DNA from: Candidatus Thorarchaeota archaeon
GTDB lineage: Archaea; Asgardarchaeota; Thorarchaeia; Thorarchaeales; Thorarchaeaceae
Direction: 5' to 3'
Length of the DNA: 64,000 nucleotides
Assembly (NCBI GenBank): GCA_021498125.1
Contig: JAIZWL010000001.1
Location: 1,452,676 to 1,516,675, forward strand
Part shown: in pieces, positions 44,832 to 52,031 of the stretch
How the letters are laid out: each line of letters begins with the position of its first letter
How positions within the stretch are numbered: position 1 is the first letter of the stretch
Made by a program: the position numbers and the translations under genes
Notes under the pieces: generated by a model
What the model saw: the letters and a program-made list of their open reading frames with translations, nothing else
The model's database searches: none
What the model was told of the DNA's origin: nothing

Positions 44832-45968
44832 CTATTTCAAGAAAAGTTGAAGTGATTCGAGAACATACTGAATCTCTTCATCGGTGAGTTTGGGGAACAT
44901 CGGCAATGATATGATCCTCTCATAAAATGCCTCTGTCTGTGGCAAGAATTCGTCCTTATAGCCCGACGACCTATAATATGGATGCCAATAAATGGGAATA
45001 TAGTGAACTTGGCAGAATATTCCTCTGTTTTTCAAGAAATTAAATAATTCTAATCGCATTTTTGCATTTTCCACTTTGATCACATAGAGATGATATGCAT
45101 GAAACTCGTAATTTCTCTCTTGAATAATCTCGACCTTGTCGCTGTATTTTTCGAAAAAGTCATTGTATGTTCCTGCTATCTCTCGTCTCTTTTTGATGAA
45201 TTGATCAATTCGTGATAGTTGCGACAGACCGAGGGCGGCCTGAATGTCAGTCAGCCGATAATTATAGCCGAGCTGATGCATCTCTTGATACCATGGTTCA
45301 GTATGTTGTGTTTGGAACTTTCTCTGATCCTTTGTGATTCCATGAGATCTAAGACTTCGGAGAAGTTCATTCATCTCTTTGTCATTGGTAGTGATGACAC
45401 CCCCTTCGCCTGTTGTGATATGTTTCACTGGATGTAGACTGAAGGCGGTAAGGTCTGAATAACGATTGTCCCCTATTTTCGAATCTCTATATTTTGCACC
45501 TATCGCATGACTTGCATCCTCAATGACAAATAGATCATTCTCATGAGCGATTTTAGAAATCTCGGTGCGTTCGACTGGCAATCCCATATAATGCACGGGA
45601 ATGATACCTACGGTTCGCTCTGTAATATGTTGGGGAATCTGTTCGGGGTCAAGTAGACCGCGTTCAGTTATATCTGAAAATACAGGGGATCCTGAGTTAT
45701 AGAGAACGCAATTTGATGTTGCCGCGAACGACATGGGTGTGGTTATCACTTCAGTATTAGGGGCGACTCCCAGAGCTTTTGCAGCAAGATGAAGCGCTGC
45801 TGTTCCACTTGTGACCGCAATAGCATATTTCGCGCCGACATATTTGGCAAACTCTTTTTCAAAGGTGTCGATAAAAGGGCCAGTCGTCAGGAAGTCCGAA
45901 TCCAAGACTTCCATAACTCGTTGTTTGTCCTCCTCGGAGATCCATTGTTTTCCATATGGAATTCTCAT
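44832..45968 (-). CDS. pseC: PseC-like PLP aminotransferase (DegT/DnrJ family)
   Basis: 378 residues. The start IPYGKQWISEEDKQRV and SDFLTTGPFIDTFEKEF are typical of PseC-type sugar aminotransferases. The PLP lysine is in SLHPVKHITTGEGG (K182). It converts the 4-keto sugar made by PseB into the 4-amino sugar. It lies 12 nt after pseB on the same strand. Confidence 0.92.
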   Translation of the reverse strand: MRIPYGKQWISEEDKQRVMEVLDSDFLTTGPFIDTFEKEFAKYVGAKYAIAVTSGTAALHLAAKALGVAPNTEVITTPMSFAATSNCVLYNSGSPVFSDITERGLLDPEQIPQHITERTVGIIPVHYMGLPVERTEISKIAHENDLFVIEDASHAIGAKYRDSKIGDNRYSDLTAFSLHPVKHITTGEGGVITTNDKEMNELLRSLRSHGITKDQRKFQTQHTEPWYQEMHQLGYNYRLTDIQAALGLSQLSRIDQFIKKRREIAGTYNDFFEKYSDKVEIIQERNYEFHAYHLYVIKVENAKMRLELFNFLKNRGIFCQVHYIPIYWHPYYRSSGYKDEFLPQTEAFYERIISLPMFPKLTDEEIQYVLESLQLFLK

Positions 45969-45980
45969 TCTCCCACTTCC

Positions 45981-47018
45981 TTAGAGTAGGTTTAATTTTT
46001 CTAAATACTTTTTAAGATCTTCTTTTGAAAGCACGTGATCCTTTGATGAGTATTCTTTTAGTTCCCCATTTGCCATGTGTTGGCCCTTTTGCATATAGAT
46101 GGGTTGTTCAATTTCGTCTTGATATTTTCTTATGAGTGATGTAATCGCAAAAATATCTTTATATTTATATGTTAAAGGCATCTCATATTCATTGATGAGA
46201 AGCTCGTGAATCTTTTCACCGGGGCGTATCCCTATAATATCAATGGGATTATCTGCATGAAGCAAGTCCTTTAGTACATCAATCAAGTCAATGATGCGTG
46301 TTGACGGAATGAATGGTACAATGACCTCGCCGCCTACACTATAGGCAAGTGCTTTCATGATCAAATCAACAGCCTGATCTGCTGATATGATAAACCGTGT
46401 CATGTCCGGATGGGTTAGCGGGATCGGTTCTCCTCTCTCGATTTTTTCCTTGAAAATTGGAATGATCGAGCCGGTGCTGGCAAGTACATTTCCATAACGT
46501 ACACAGCTTAAGAGCGTCCTTGATTTTCCTTTACTATAATTGGTTTCTGTAAAGATGCGTTCTCCAAGAAGTTTGCATGCACCATACGAGTTCAATGGGG
46601 CGCATGCTTTGTCTGTAGAGATAAACAGGGCATGGCGCACATTATTGGCAACAGCGGCATTTGCCACATTCAAGGTTCCAATAATATTGGTCTTGATCGA
46701 TTCGGCCACATTGTATTCAATCATGTCGATTCTTTTCAATGCGGCTGCATGAATTATTATGTCCACACCTTTTGTTGCGCGTTCCAACCGTGGATAGTCC
46801 CGCACATCGCCTATCAGATTTCGAATGTATGGGTTTTCACCAAATTCGACATTAAAATGAAAATGTTTGACTTCATCTCTACTGAAGACTCTGATGGACT
46901 GAGGGGAGTACCTTAGAAATCTTTTCACGAGGCTCTTCCCAAGGAAACCAGTGCCCCCTGTAATCAGGATTACCCTATCATGCACGAGTTCAGCAATTTT
47001 TTTATCAAAATCAATCAA
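45981..47018 (-). CDS. pseB: PseB-like UDP-GlcNAc inverting 4,6-dehydratase
   Basis: 345 residues, extended SDR. NAD-binding ILITGGTGFLGKSL (18-31), the STDK loop (134-137), active-site NSYGACK (Y145, K149) and VRYGNVLASTGSIIPIF are as in PseB/FlaA1-type dehydratases that convert UDP-GlcNAc to the 4-keto-6-deoxy-AltNAc. The soluble form lacks the membrane helices of PglF-type retaining enzymes. It is followed directly by pseC, the next enzyme of the pathway. Confidence 0.92.
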   Translation of the reverse strand: MIDFDKKIAELVHDRVILITGGTGFLGKSLVKRFLRYSPQSIRVFSRDEVKHFHFNVEFGENPYIRNLIGDVRDYPRLERATKGVDIIIHAAALKRIDMIEYNVAESIKTNIIGTLNVANAAVANNVRHALFISTDKACAPLNSYGACKLLGERIFTETNYSKGKSRTLLSCVRYGNVLASTGSIIPIFKEKIERGEPIPLTHPDMTRFIISADQAVDLIMKALAYSVGGEVIVPFIPSTRIIDLIDVLKDLLHADNPIDIIGIRPGEKIHELLINEYEMPLTYKYKDIFAITSLIRKYQDEIEQPIYMQKGQHMANGELKEYSSKDHVLSKEDLKKYLEKLNLL

Positions 47019-47084
47019 AAGGTACTCACTCTCTGGTTATGTACTATTCCACCAAACACAACAATGGCCGTAATTTGAACTTTG

Positions 47085-47858
47085 CTATGTCATTCTTGTG
47101 TCTACTTCTTTGAAATGCTTCTGTTTGACACCACTGTTGATTGTAGCAATTTCTGGATGGGCGTCTAAAAACTCTATTATTTTGCGATGATCCGCATTAA
47201 TTAGGTCTTCTTTGAAATGATCATAGATGGCTAAAATTAGTCTGTAATCAGTTTCAGTGTCAACGCATAGTCGATATCTTGGTCTGCAATCCGGAGGCTC
47301 CGGGAAGAGATACTCTGTGGTGAAATTCTCTTGATGCGTGTACAAATATGGCATCACATGTTCTCGTTCATATTTTTCGGTGGCCTCTGAAGCTGCTATT
47401 GCCAAGGACTCAAACTTAGCCACTTCGACATCAAATCCCCTCGGATATGCACACTCCTTATTTTCTCCTATGGAAATAGTGAGATAATCCACGTCTCTTT
47501 CGAGAAATGATACAACCGCGTAATCGATGAGTTTCGGAGAGATGACCGGGCAGTCGCCAGTGACTCGCACAACAACATCCGCCTGCTGAGATTTTGCGGC
47601 CTCGAAGAATCTTGAGAGAACATCATCTTCTGACCCGCGAAATACCGCAAAACCAAGATCCCTCACATATTCTGCTAATGGGTCGTCTGACGGATTGGTG
47701 GATGTGGCTAAGATGACTTTATTGACTAGGTGAGCTTGACTCGCCCGTTTTAAGACGAGTTCAACGATCGACCAACTACCTATTTTTTTGAGAGATTTTT
47801 TTGGGAGGCGGGATGAGTTCATCCGTGCTTGGACAATGCACACAATATTTTGAGTCAT
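47085..47858 (-). CDS. pseF: PseF-like CMP-sugar cytidylyltransferase (SpsF family)
   Basis: 257 residues. VCIVQARMNSSRLPKKSL is the nucleotide-binding motif, and VVVRVTGDCPVISPKLIDY is the metal-binding block of SpsF/PseF-type transferases, which join CMP to pseudaminic acid. It lies upstream of pseB and pseC on the same strand, 66 nt from pseB. Other nonulosonic acids are possible substrates. Confidence 0.85.
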   Translation of the reverse strand: MTQNIVCIVQARMNSSRLPKKSLKKIGSWSIVELVLKRASQAHLVNKVILATSTNPSDDPLAEYVRDLGFAVFRGSEDDVLSRFFEAAKSQQADVVVRVTGDCPVISPKLIDYAVVSFLERDVDYLTISIGENKECAYPRGFDVEVAKFESLAIAASEATEKYEREHVMPYLYTHQENFTTEYLFPEPPDCRPRYRLCVDTETDYRLILAIYDHFKEDLINADHRKIIEFLDAHPEIATINSGVKQKHFKEVDTRMT

Positions 47859-47985
47859 TGTTTTTCAATAAATTTTGTATTTGCAAACGTTAATGAGTTT
47901 GTCTATCGAATAAATTGGCTTCATGCTATTCTGTTTCTCCAAGAATCTATATATGATGTTTATAGTTGGATTAGTTGGTGACTAA

Positions 47986-49035
47986 ATGAAGACTATACTG
48001 ATTGATAATATTGCAGTTGGCGATAACCAACCCGTCTTCATTGTTGCTGAGATCTCTGCCAATCATTTACAAGATTATGATCTTGCTGTGAAGCTCATTG
48101 ATGCCGCTGCAAAATCGGGAGCTAATGCAATCAAGTTGCAGACCTATACGCCCGATACTATCACACTCGATTCCGACAACGATTATTTCAAAATAAAACA
48201 GGGGACCATATGGGACGGGCGCACTCTCTATGATCTCTATAGCGAAGCATATACGCCTTGGGAATGGCAGCCAAAACTGAAGAAATATGCAGAGGAGCAG
48301 GGGCTTGTATGTTTTTCGTCACCTTTTGATTCTACTGCCGTAGATTTCCTAGAAAAAATAAATATCCCGGCCTATAAGATCGCTTCTTTTGAAATCACTG
48401 ATATTCCTCTGATCGAGTATGTTGCTTCTAAAGGTAAACCTGTTATTATCTCGACGGGGATTGCTACGACTGAAGATATTGAAGCGGCAGTCCAAGCATG
48501 TAGACGACAACACAACAACGACATAATTATTTTAAAATGCACCTCTGCCTATCCCACCCCACTACAGGAAGTAAATCTGCGAACTATGCCGGACATGAGG
48601 AGCCGCTATGATTGTCTTGTGGGCCTATCCGATCATACTAAAGGGGTTTCCGTTCCTATTGCATCAGTGGCACTTGGGGCATGTATGATTGAGAAGCATA
48701 TAATCTTGGATCGAGATATGGGAGGGCCCGATGCAGCATTCTCATTGGAGCCTGATGAATTCAAATCCATGGTTACAAGTGTACGTGAGGTCGAGGAGGC
48801 TCTGGGTGTAGTTGATTATTCTTTGACCAGTAAGAAGAAGAAGAGCCGAGAGTTTGCGCGTTCGCTATTTATAGTGAAGGATATTGCTGCTGGTGAAAAA
48901 TTAACTCCTGACAATGTTCGTTCGATTCGGCCCGGATACGGTCTTCCCCCAAAATTTCTGAAGGATGTGCTTGGGCGAACAGCGAAAAAAGAAATTAAAC
49001 GAGGCACGCCTCTCACATGGGATCTGCTGGAATAG
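47986..49035 (+). CDS. pseI: Pseudaminic acid synthase, PseI (NeuB family)
   Basis: 349 residues. NeuB domain (FIVAEISANHLQDYDLAVKLI, AIKLQTYTPDTITLD) with the PseI-specific GTIWDGRTLYDLYSEAYTPW and FSSPFDSTAVDFLE. A C-terminal SAF (antifreeze-like) domain carries SLFIVKDIAAGEKLT and VRSIRPGYGLPP. It condenses the 6-deoxy hexose with phosphoenolpyruvate to make the nine-carbon sugar. A TATA-like ATCTATATATG lies about 40 nt upstream. The motif match makes pseudaminic rather than legionaminic or neuraminic acid the most probable product. Confidence 0.93.
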   Translation: MKTILIDNIAVGDNQPVFIVAEISANHLQDYDLAVKLIDAAAKSGANAIKLQTYTPDTITLDSDNDYFKIKQGTIWDGRTLYDLYSEAYTPWEWQPKLKKYAEEQGLVCFSSPFDSTAVDFLEKINIPAYKIASFEITDIPLIEYVASKGKPVIISTGIATTEDIEAAVQACRRQHNNDIIILKCTSAYPTPLQEVNLRTMPDMRSRYDCLVGLSDHTKGVSVPIASVALGACMIEKHIILDRDMGGPDAAFSLEPDEFKSMVTSVREVEEALGVVDYSLTSKKKKSREFARSLFIVKDIAAGEKLTPDNVRSIRPGYGLPPKFLKDVLGRTAKKEIKRGTPLTWDLLE

Positions 49036-51420: not shown

Positions 51421-51978
51421 CTAGGAGCCTTCGACGACGAGCCTATAATAGTAGGTCTTACCAGCGGTCCGGCTATCGCGCTCGATTCTGACGACTTGGC
51501 CGGGTTTGGCTCCGAGCACACGAGCAGCGGGATCACTTCTAAGAATCCGTGGGAGTTGTGTCTTGTCTATCCCGTAGTGATTGAGGACTATCTGAATCTC
51601 ATCTTTAGTGGCAATCCTATGCTTGGGGACCAGTTCGTGATCGAAGAGGTCAAAAGACGAATAGTTACCCTGGATCAATTCGACATGGCTCTCTCGTGCC
51701 TGTTTCTTCGCAGCGGGCGTGAATCTGCTGCCTCCGATGAGCATACCCTCTGGAGCTTGAACTTCCTCCATATTCCGGGCAATGTCTTTTACTAAGGCCA
51801 CTCCGACAACACGTGGCTCTTTGAAGATCCACACAACGGATTTTGTGACGACATCATCTTTGACTCTCTCAGGGAATAGCACCCACCGTTCCTCATACTC
51901 GAACAGTTCGTCGGCCTTATAACCCCGGAGTCTCAAGAGCTGCCTAGTCTTGATAACTATGCTTGGTAGATCCACCAT
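51421..51978 (-). CDS. rpo5: RNA polymerase subunit Rpo5/Rpb5 with eukaryote-like N-terminal domain
   Basis: 185 residues. Residues 111-185 are the Rpb5/RpoH core: DHELVPKHRIATKDEIQIVL, then LPRILRSDPAARVLGAKPGQ and TAGKTYYYRLV. Most archaeal Rpo5 proteins consist of only this core (about 80 residues). Here another 110 residues precede it, with the pattern of the eukaryotic Rpb5 N-terminal (jaw) domain: KTRQLLRLRGY (near the N-terminus), VALVKDIARNMEE, and GMLIGGSRFTPAAKKQA leading into the junction SFDLFDHELVP. Length and order resemble eukaryotic Rpb5 (about 210). It is not next to rpoB, where archaeal rpoH usually lies. It is convergent with the dolichol-kinase-like gene, with 8 nt between stops. 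Confidence 0.88.
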   Translation of the reverse strand: MVDLPSIVIKTRQLLRLRGYKADELFEYEERWVLFPERVKDDVVTKSVVWIFKEPRVVGVALVKDIARNMEEVQAPEGMLIGGSRFTPAAKKQARESHVELIQGNYSSFDLFDHELVPKHRIATKDEIQIVLNHYGIDKTQLPRILRSDPAARVLGAKPGQVVRIERDSRTAGKTYYYRLVVEGS

Positions 51979-52001: not shown

Positions 52002-52031
52002 ATATGTTCGCTCTTTAGTGAACATATAAAG
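52002..52031 (-). promoter_or_regulatory. TATA box inside an inverted repeat before rpo5
   Basis: ATATGTTC (52002-52009) and GAACATAT (52020-52027) form an inverted repeat around 10 bases. On the minus strand the distal arm is the TATA element (CTTTATATGTTC), with the expected start of transcription about 25 bp further, close to the ATG at 51976-51978. A protein bound here could control the polymerase-subunit gene. Confidence 0.45.

Follow-up and report, generated by a model that had tools for sequence, protein, structure and literature searches.

The rpo5 gene of the thorarchaeotal genome examined here encodes a two-domain RNA polymerase subunit 5, in which the canonical archaeal assembly domain is preceded by a domain with the predicted fold of the eukaryotic Rpb5 jaw. 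The reading we favour, with a probability of roughly 0.74, is that a catalytically dead Mrr-type domain was fused to a relocated rpo5 before eukaryotes existed and works as the lower jaw of the polymerase. The support for this reading, namely the architecture, the predicted fold, the profile homology, the loss of a catalytic lysine, the distribution and the genomic context, is shown. The gene lies in a window (the whole stretch of DNA that was analysed, 64,000 nucleotides), and its features are as follows.

51421..51978, minus strand: rpo5 (long form), two-domain RNA polymerase subunit 5, 185 aa
51655..51978, minus strand: N-terminal jaw-like domain, residues 1-108, Mrr-type / Rpb5-N fold
51424..51654, minus strand: C-terminal assembly domain, residues 109-185, canonical Rpo5/Rpb5-C
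51919..51927, minus strand: RGY motif, R18-G19-Y20
51823..51831, minus strand: position of nuclease motif III (Q/E-x-K), here W50-I51-F52, with the lysine replaced by a hydrophobic residue
51706..51723, minus strand: FTPAAK motif, F86-K91, common to human 'MTPSAK' and Mrr 'FTxxA'
52023..52030, minus strand: TATA-box-like TTTATATG, about 45 nt upstream of the rpo5 start, conserved in most aligned relatives

The 185-aa open reading frame 51421..51978 (minus strand) begins with an ATG start codon, and its product is a member of the Rpo5/Rpb5 family, as shown by the C-terminal domain and by the single genomic copy. The whole PF01191 model (RNA_pol_Rpb5_C, positions 2-73 of 73) matches residues 110-181 with an E-value of 2.6e-29, the NCBIfam equivalog 'RNA polymerase subunit H' is matched above its cut-off (E 6e-30), and the C-terminal domain matches Rpo5 of P. 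furiosus with an E-value of 8e-22. The first-pass annotation, which had assigned the C-terminal 75 residues or so to Rpo5/Rpb5 and had noted an extra N-terminal part of about 110 residues that is absent from canonical archaeal Rpo5, was right on both points. There is only one PF01191 match in the genome, which is 98.2% complete, so that the gene is the sole rpo5, as would be expected of a core polymerase subunit; a second, canonical rpo5 was looked for in this genome and not found.

The N-terminal stretch of about 108 residues is genuine coding sequence, because 27 further Asgard proteins share it, R18, G59 and T87 being almost or fully invariant among them, and because it folds in the AlphaFold prediction with a pLDDT above 90. 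Contamination or mis-assembly could be ruled out, as the gene is located inside a contig of 1.55 Mb and is also present in other members of its genus and family.

The proposal that this N-terminal part resembles that of eukaryotic Rpb5 came with two suggested checks, a Pfam Rpb5_N search and a structure prediction against Rpb5. Run literally, the Pfam check failed: the window protein alone has no match to Rpb5_N (PF03871) and matches instead Mrr_cat (PF04471), a family with the restriction-endonuclease fold (E 1.6e-5, 25.4 bits against a cut-off of 21), which to the letter amounts to a refutation. However, the Mrr_cat match is no contradiction, because the domain is a degenerate Mrr-type fold that links the Rpb5 jaw to precisely that fold. 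The single-sequence Pfam test is also insensitive for the family of long Rpo5 proteins. Just three of the 28 aligned Asgard members match PF03871 (best E 6.3e-5, 24 bits against a cut-off of 27) and one of 228 Asgard genomes exceeds its cut-off, whereas Mrr_cat is matched by all 28 members and generally more strongly.

The likeness to Rpb5 is supported by the family profile, by HHalign and by the full-length structural model. When the family profile of the N-domain (residues 1-112) was compared with all PDB chains, the best 13 matches were all eukaryotic Rpb5 (human E 4.2e-9, Arabidopsis 1.1e-8, fission yeast 2.7e-5, budding yeast 1.4e-4), with alignments falling inside the Rpb5 N-domain, and no restriction enzymes were found in this search up to E 10. 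Even the window protein alone aligns to human RPB5 through both domains (41-181 vs 66-209). With HHalign, the Asgard N-domain reached 97.5% against archaeal Mrr-type domains and 96.0% (E 4e-9) against eukaryotic Rpb5-N, while eukaryotic Rpb5-N against the Mrr-type domains gave 3.8%; column-shuffled controls did not exceed 1.7% overall and 1.2% for the Asgard-eukaryote comparison. Two properties of the data sets have to be considered here. Choosing the Mrr set by likeness to the Asgard profile biases the Asgard-Mrr value upwards, and the eukaryote-Mrr value is limited by a eukaryotic profile of only four sequences (three fungi and human). By profile comparison, the N-domain is homologous to the Rpb5 jaw, and it bridges this jaw and the Mrr-type fold. 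In raw score, the Asgard profile rates archaeal Mrr-type proteins (41.5 bits) and human Rpb5 (39.4 bits) about equally, and therefore two separate fusions cannot be excluded from sequence alone.

The sequence motifs point to a nuclease fold without its catalytic lysine. Sixteen of the 23 Mrr rows have this motif III lysine, but none of the 65 Asgard Rpo5 rows and none of the four eukaryotes do; its position is hydrophobic in the Asgard and eukaryotic rows, with F in eukaryotic Rpb5. The aspartate of motif II is retained in some Asgard members. The RGY arginine occurs in 62 of 64 aligned Asgard sequences, in 4/4 eukaryotic ones and in two of the 19 aligned Mrr rows. The RGY near the start and the FTPAAK, both named in the first-pass annotation, were thus found and have counterparts in eukaryotic Rpb5. 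With the fold and the Mrr_cat match present but the catalytic lysine missing, we classify the N-domain as a degenerate nuclease fold of the Mrr type (PD-(D/E)xK). It is probably catalytically dead, as inferred from the loss of the lysine.

The second suggested check, the structure prediction, did find the jaw fold. The full-length AlphaFold (AF2) model has a pLDDT of 89.8 (91.3 for the N-domain alone), and its best PDB matches are all Rpb5 of Pol I, II or III (TM 0.81, rmsd 2.4, 206 columns; the superposition with TM 0.81 is that on 8uhd chain E). By fold match of this model, some eukaryotic viruses are also among the carriers of the jaw. For the N-domain alone, the highest TM-scores were obtained with Rpb5 (0.69 and 0.68); those for MspJI and AF1548 were 0.60 and 0.53. 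Ranked by E-value, the fold search with this domain interleaves Rpb5 and Mrr-type endonucleases, with EcoT38I also being matched. SCOP places the N-domain of Rpb5 in the restriction-endonuclease-like fold class. Since the interdomain geometry of the full-length model agrees with Rpb5 as well, both the jaw fold and the two-domain arrangement of Rpb5 are predicted for the window protein, with the caveat that AlphaFold may recall the geometry of eukaryotic Rpb5.

The window protein shares with eukaryotic Rpb5 (RPABC1) the order of jaw and assembly domain, a similar length, the lost nuclease lysine and the motifs RGY and (F/M)TP(A/S)AK. It differs in that it is encoded by an archaeal gene, that its N-domain stays below the Pfam Rpb5_N cut-off and that this domain, shorter by approximately 25-35 residues, has no counterpart of the eukaryotic segment that separates RGY from the first central strand. 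With canonical archaeal Rpo5 (RpoH) the likeness is confined to the C-terminal domain, which is 55-57% identical to that of Thermococcus/Pyrococcus over about 75 residues (fold match); canonical Rpo5 has about 80 aa and no jaw, and in Asgard genomes its gene adjoins rpo2. Mrr_cat proteins such as MspJI and AF1548 have the fold, the sequence profile and the FTxxA motif in common with the N-domain, which in contrast to them has lost the catalytic lysine, gained the RGY arginine and become fused to an RNA polymerase subunit. Rpo13 of the Sulfolobales is an equivalent in position only: it is a separate helix-turn-helix protein of unrelated sequence that sits in a groove beside Rpo5, which is partly filled by the Rpb5 jaw in eukaryotes (PMC2675907).

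The long form of Rpo5 is widespread in Asgard archaea. Across 228 Asgard genomes, it is the prevailing form in about 20 of 29 families, and the short form prevails in about seven; by our count, about 120 Asgard genomes have a match to the full-length profile that spans both domains. In a scan with an alignment of six sequences, the long form was assigned to named lineages that include Thorarchaeota, Heimdallarchaeota, Hodarchaeota, Borrarchaeum and Sifarchaeum. The jaw form was not found in about 165 other archaeal genomes, where the matches, the lowest-scoring ones left aside, cover the C-terminal domain only; every full-length Asgard match outscores every non-Asgard match.

The two forms also differ in genomic location. 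Wherever the contig extends far enough, which it does in all cases but one, the gene for a short Rpo5 (79-100 aa) is directly followed by rpo2, whereas none of the roughly 60 long forms adjoins rpo2. In the genome of the window, rpo2 is located about 1.5 Mb from rpo5 on the same contig, and no remnant of rpo5 was detected beside rpo2 in this genome or in the others checked. The absence from the rpoB operon noted in the first-pass annotation is therefore real, but it is not the oddity it was taken for: within the loci examined, the long form is regularly encoded away from rpo2. We did not find a genome with both a short and a long rpo5. The apparent exceptions G161 (L020) and G167 (L031/L059) are probably mixed bins, with contents unlike those of their own families and high contamination.

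The window gene probably has its own promoter, as the TATA-like TTTATATG element and a TTGACAA-type flank are conserved in most relatives of the Thor family; this is inferred from sequence alone. Most of these relatives also carry a TTGACAAnnTTTATAT-type block upstream of rpo5, and the start codon is preceded by GGTG, a motif resembling a ribosome site.

The phylogenetic resolution of these short proteins is limited. In a tree of 115 columns of the N-domain, the sampled Mrr domains form one group (support 100/98) apart from the Asgard and eukaryotic N-domains, and the eukaryotes form one long branch in which the Asgard sequences are not nested. This tree does not root the eukaryotes within Asgard, and a test of alternative groupings does not discriminate; generally, trees of 80-115 columns do not place eukaryotes inside Asgard. 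The tree of the Rpo5 C-domain has too few columns to split long from short forms or to place eukaryotes. In the Rpo2 tree, lineages with short Rpo5 are scattered among those with long Rpo5, so that about four changes are needed. It is hard to imagine that a shortened gene returned repeatedly to its old operon slot. Hence, either early Asgard archaea had both copies, of which different lineages lost different ones, or the Rpo2 tree is wrong at these nodes.

The main rival to a single old fusion, which we nevertheless regard as unlikely, is that Asgard Rpo5 and eukaryotic Rpb5 each captured an N-terminal Mrr-type domain on their own. The two would then be kin in fold without sharing a fusion, and the Asgard form would be jaw-like in function without being the ancestor of the jaw. 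It is in favour of this rival that all aligned Asgard members match Mrr_cat but few match Rpb5_N, that the Asgard profile does not prefer Rpb5 over Mrr-type proteins in score, and that repeated N-domains in the Rpo5 of two Asgard families demonstrate that such domains can be added. However, independent fusion would require the same fold class to be acquired twice, on the same side of the same subunit and with the same loss of lysine, the RGY arginine being common to both. Moreover, the eukaryotic N-domain is far nearer to Asgard (96%) than to Mrr (3.8%), and the sampled Mrr group excludes the Asgard and the eukaryotic N-domains alike.

We consider it far less probable still that full-length Rpb5 was transferred horizontally from an early eukaryote to Asgard archaea and then spread. 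For such a transfer one could argue that the jaw was previously known only from eukaryotes (plus, by the fold match described here, some eukaryotic viruses), and that a general case has been made for gene flow between Heimdallarchaeia and proto-eukaryotes (PMC12395588). Against it stand the presence of the jaw in about 20 deeply divergent Asgard families and the long eukaryotic branch in which Asgard is not nested; furthermore, the Asgard domain is nearer to the Mrr type than the eukaryotic one, which is the pattern of an ancestral and not of a received form. There is equally little to recommend the idea of an N-domain that acts as an active nuclease or as a DNA-binding add-on off the jaw, for instance one that recruits RNA polymerase to damaged or foreign DNA. 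The clear Mrr_cat similarity and the motif II aspartate kept in some members speak for it, but the motif III lysine is missing in 65/65 rows, and an add-on off the jaw does not fit the Rpb5-like geometry between the two domains of the model.

The favoured reading, a single fusion that preceded eukaryotes, can be put as follows. In an early Asgard ancestor, a copy of rpo5 would have left the rpo2 operon and would have been fused to an Mrr-type domain. The C-terminal domain would dock on Rpo1 as in every archaeal polymerase, and by homology with Pol II (PMC3906176, PMC2675907) the N-domain would serve as the lower jaw where the DNA channel opens at its downstream end. There it may hold the downstream duplex DNA and offer a docking surface for initiation factors, so that the nuclease fold would have been kept for contact with DNA or protein and not for cleavage. 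Eukaryotes would then have inherited the jaw-bearing Rpo5. The placement of the jaw on the polymerase and its contact with DNA are inferred, as are the direction of the fusion and its origin in a single event. Hence, a jaw older than eukaryotes, as suggested in the first-pass annotation, is the best reading but unproven, with a second, independent fusion as the main alternative. A bolder reading, towards which we lean only slightly, is that the Rpb5 jaw of all eukaryotic RNA polymerases stems from an Mrr-type nuclease whose catalytic site was lost, by way of the Asgard fusion, with jaw-less and jaw-bearing copies being sorted differently among lineages. If this is true, the type of Rpo5 marks those lineages that could have given eukaryotes their polymerase.

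A jaw with visible nuclease ancestry in most Asgard families would shift one step in the making of RNA polymerase II to before eukaryogenesis. The combinations of jaw with relocated gene and of no jaw with operon position provide a two-state genetic marker across Asgard, which is of a rare kind, and Asgard archaea offer a simpler system with a single polymerase for testing the function of the jaw.

The Asgard jaw is likely to be a novel observation. Archaeal Rpo5 has been described as lacking the N-terminal domain, which was called eukaryotic (PMC3906176, 2014; PMC2675907, 2009). The paper on heimdallarchaeial ancestry names RPB8 among the polymerase subunits, but not RPB5 (PMC10307638). A 2026 survey of the small subunits of archaeal RNA polymerases, including those of Asgard, modelled Asgard Rpo5 (PMC13257274), and its sections bearing on Rpo5 do not mention an N-terminal jaw. 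There was no report of an Asgard Rpo5 jaw in the literature searched, with supplements and preprints being outside the search.

Several variations of Rpo5 were observed in other Asgard genomes. In families f7 and f8 (L045, L048, L051, L053, L056, L058), Rpo5 has 430-500 aa and carries about three tandem jaw/Mrr-like domains before the assembly domain, the last being the best conserved. Several genomes of the Thor family f1 (L061, L063, L066, L067, L080 and relatives) possess two adjacent, diverged long rpo5 genes in tandem. These genomes may have alternative RNA polymerases; the genome of the window has one rpo5. Long C-terminal tails rich in lysine, proline and alanine, with repeats such as KPKEAAKKTAA, are found in family f6 (L042, L043, L049, L046). 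In f24 and f25 (L052, L054, L055, L057), about 25 extra residues are inserted into the assembly domain shortly before its final strand. Genomes of the Hodarchaeales type encode several stand-alone Mrr-like proteins of 125-146 aa (G052 C1:704848, 953494, 952823 and 3405016; G042 C240 and C66), whose closeness to the Rpo5 N-domain is not shown. Within the window itself, positions 44832-49035 harbour a cluster for the synthesis of a nonulosonic (sialic-like) acid, with genes for a DegT aminotransferase, a polysaccharide NAD-epimerase, a cytidylyltransferase and a NeuB synthase.
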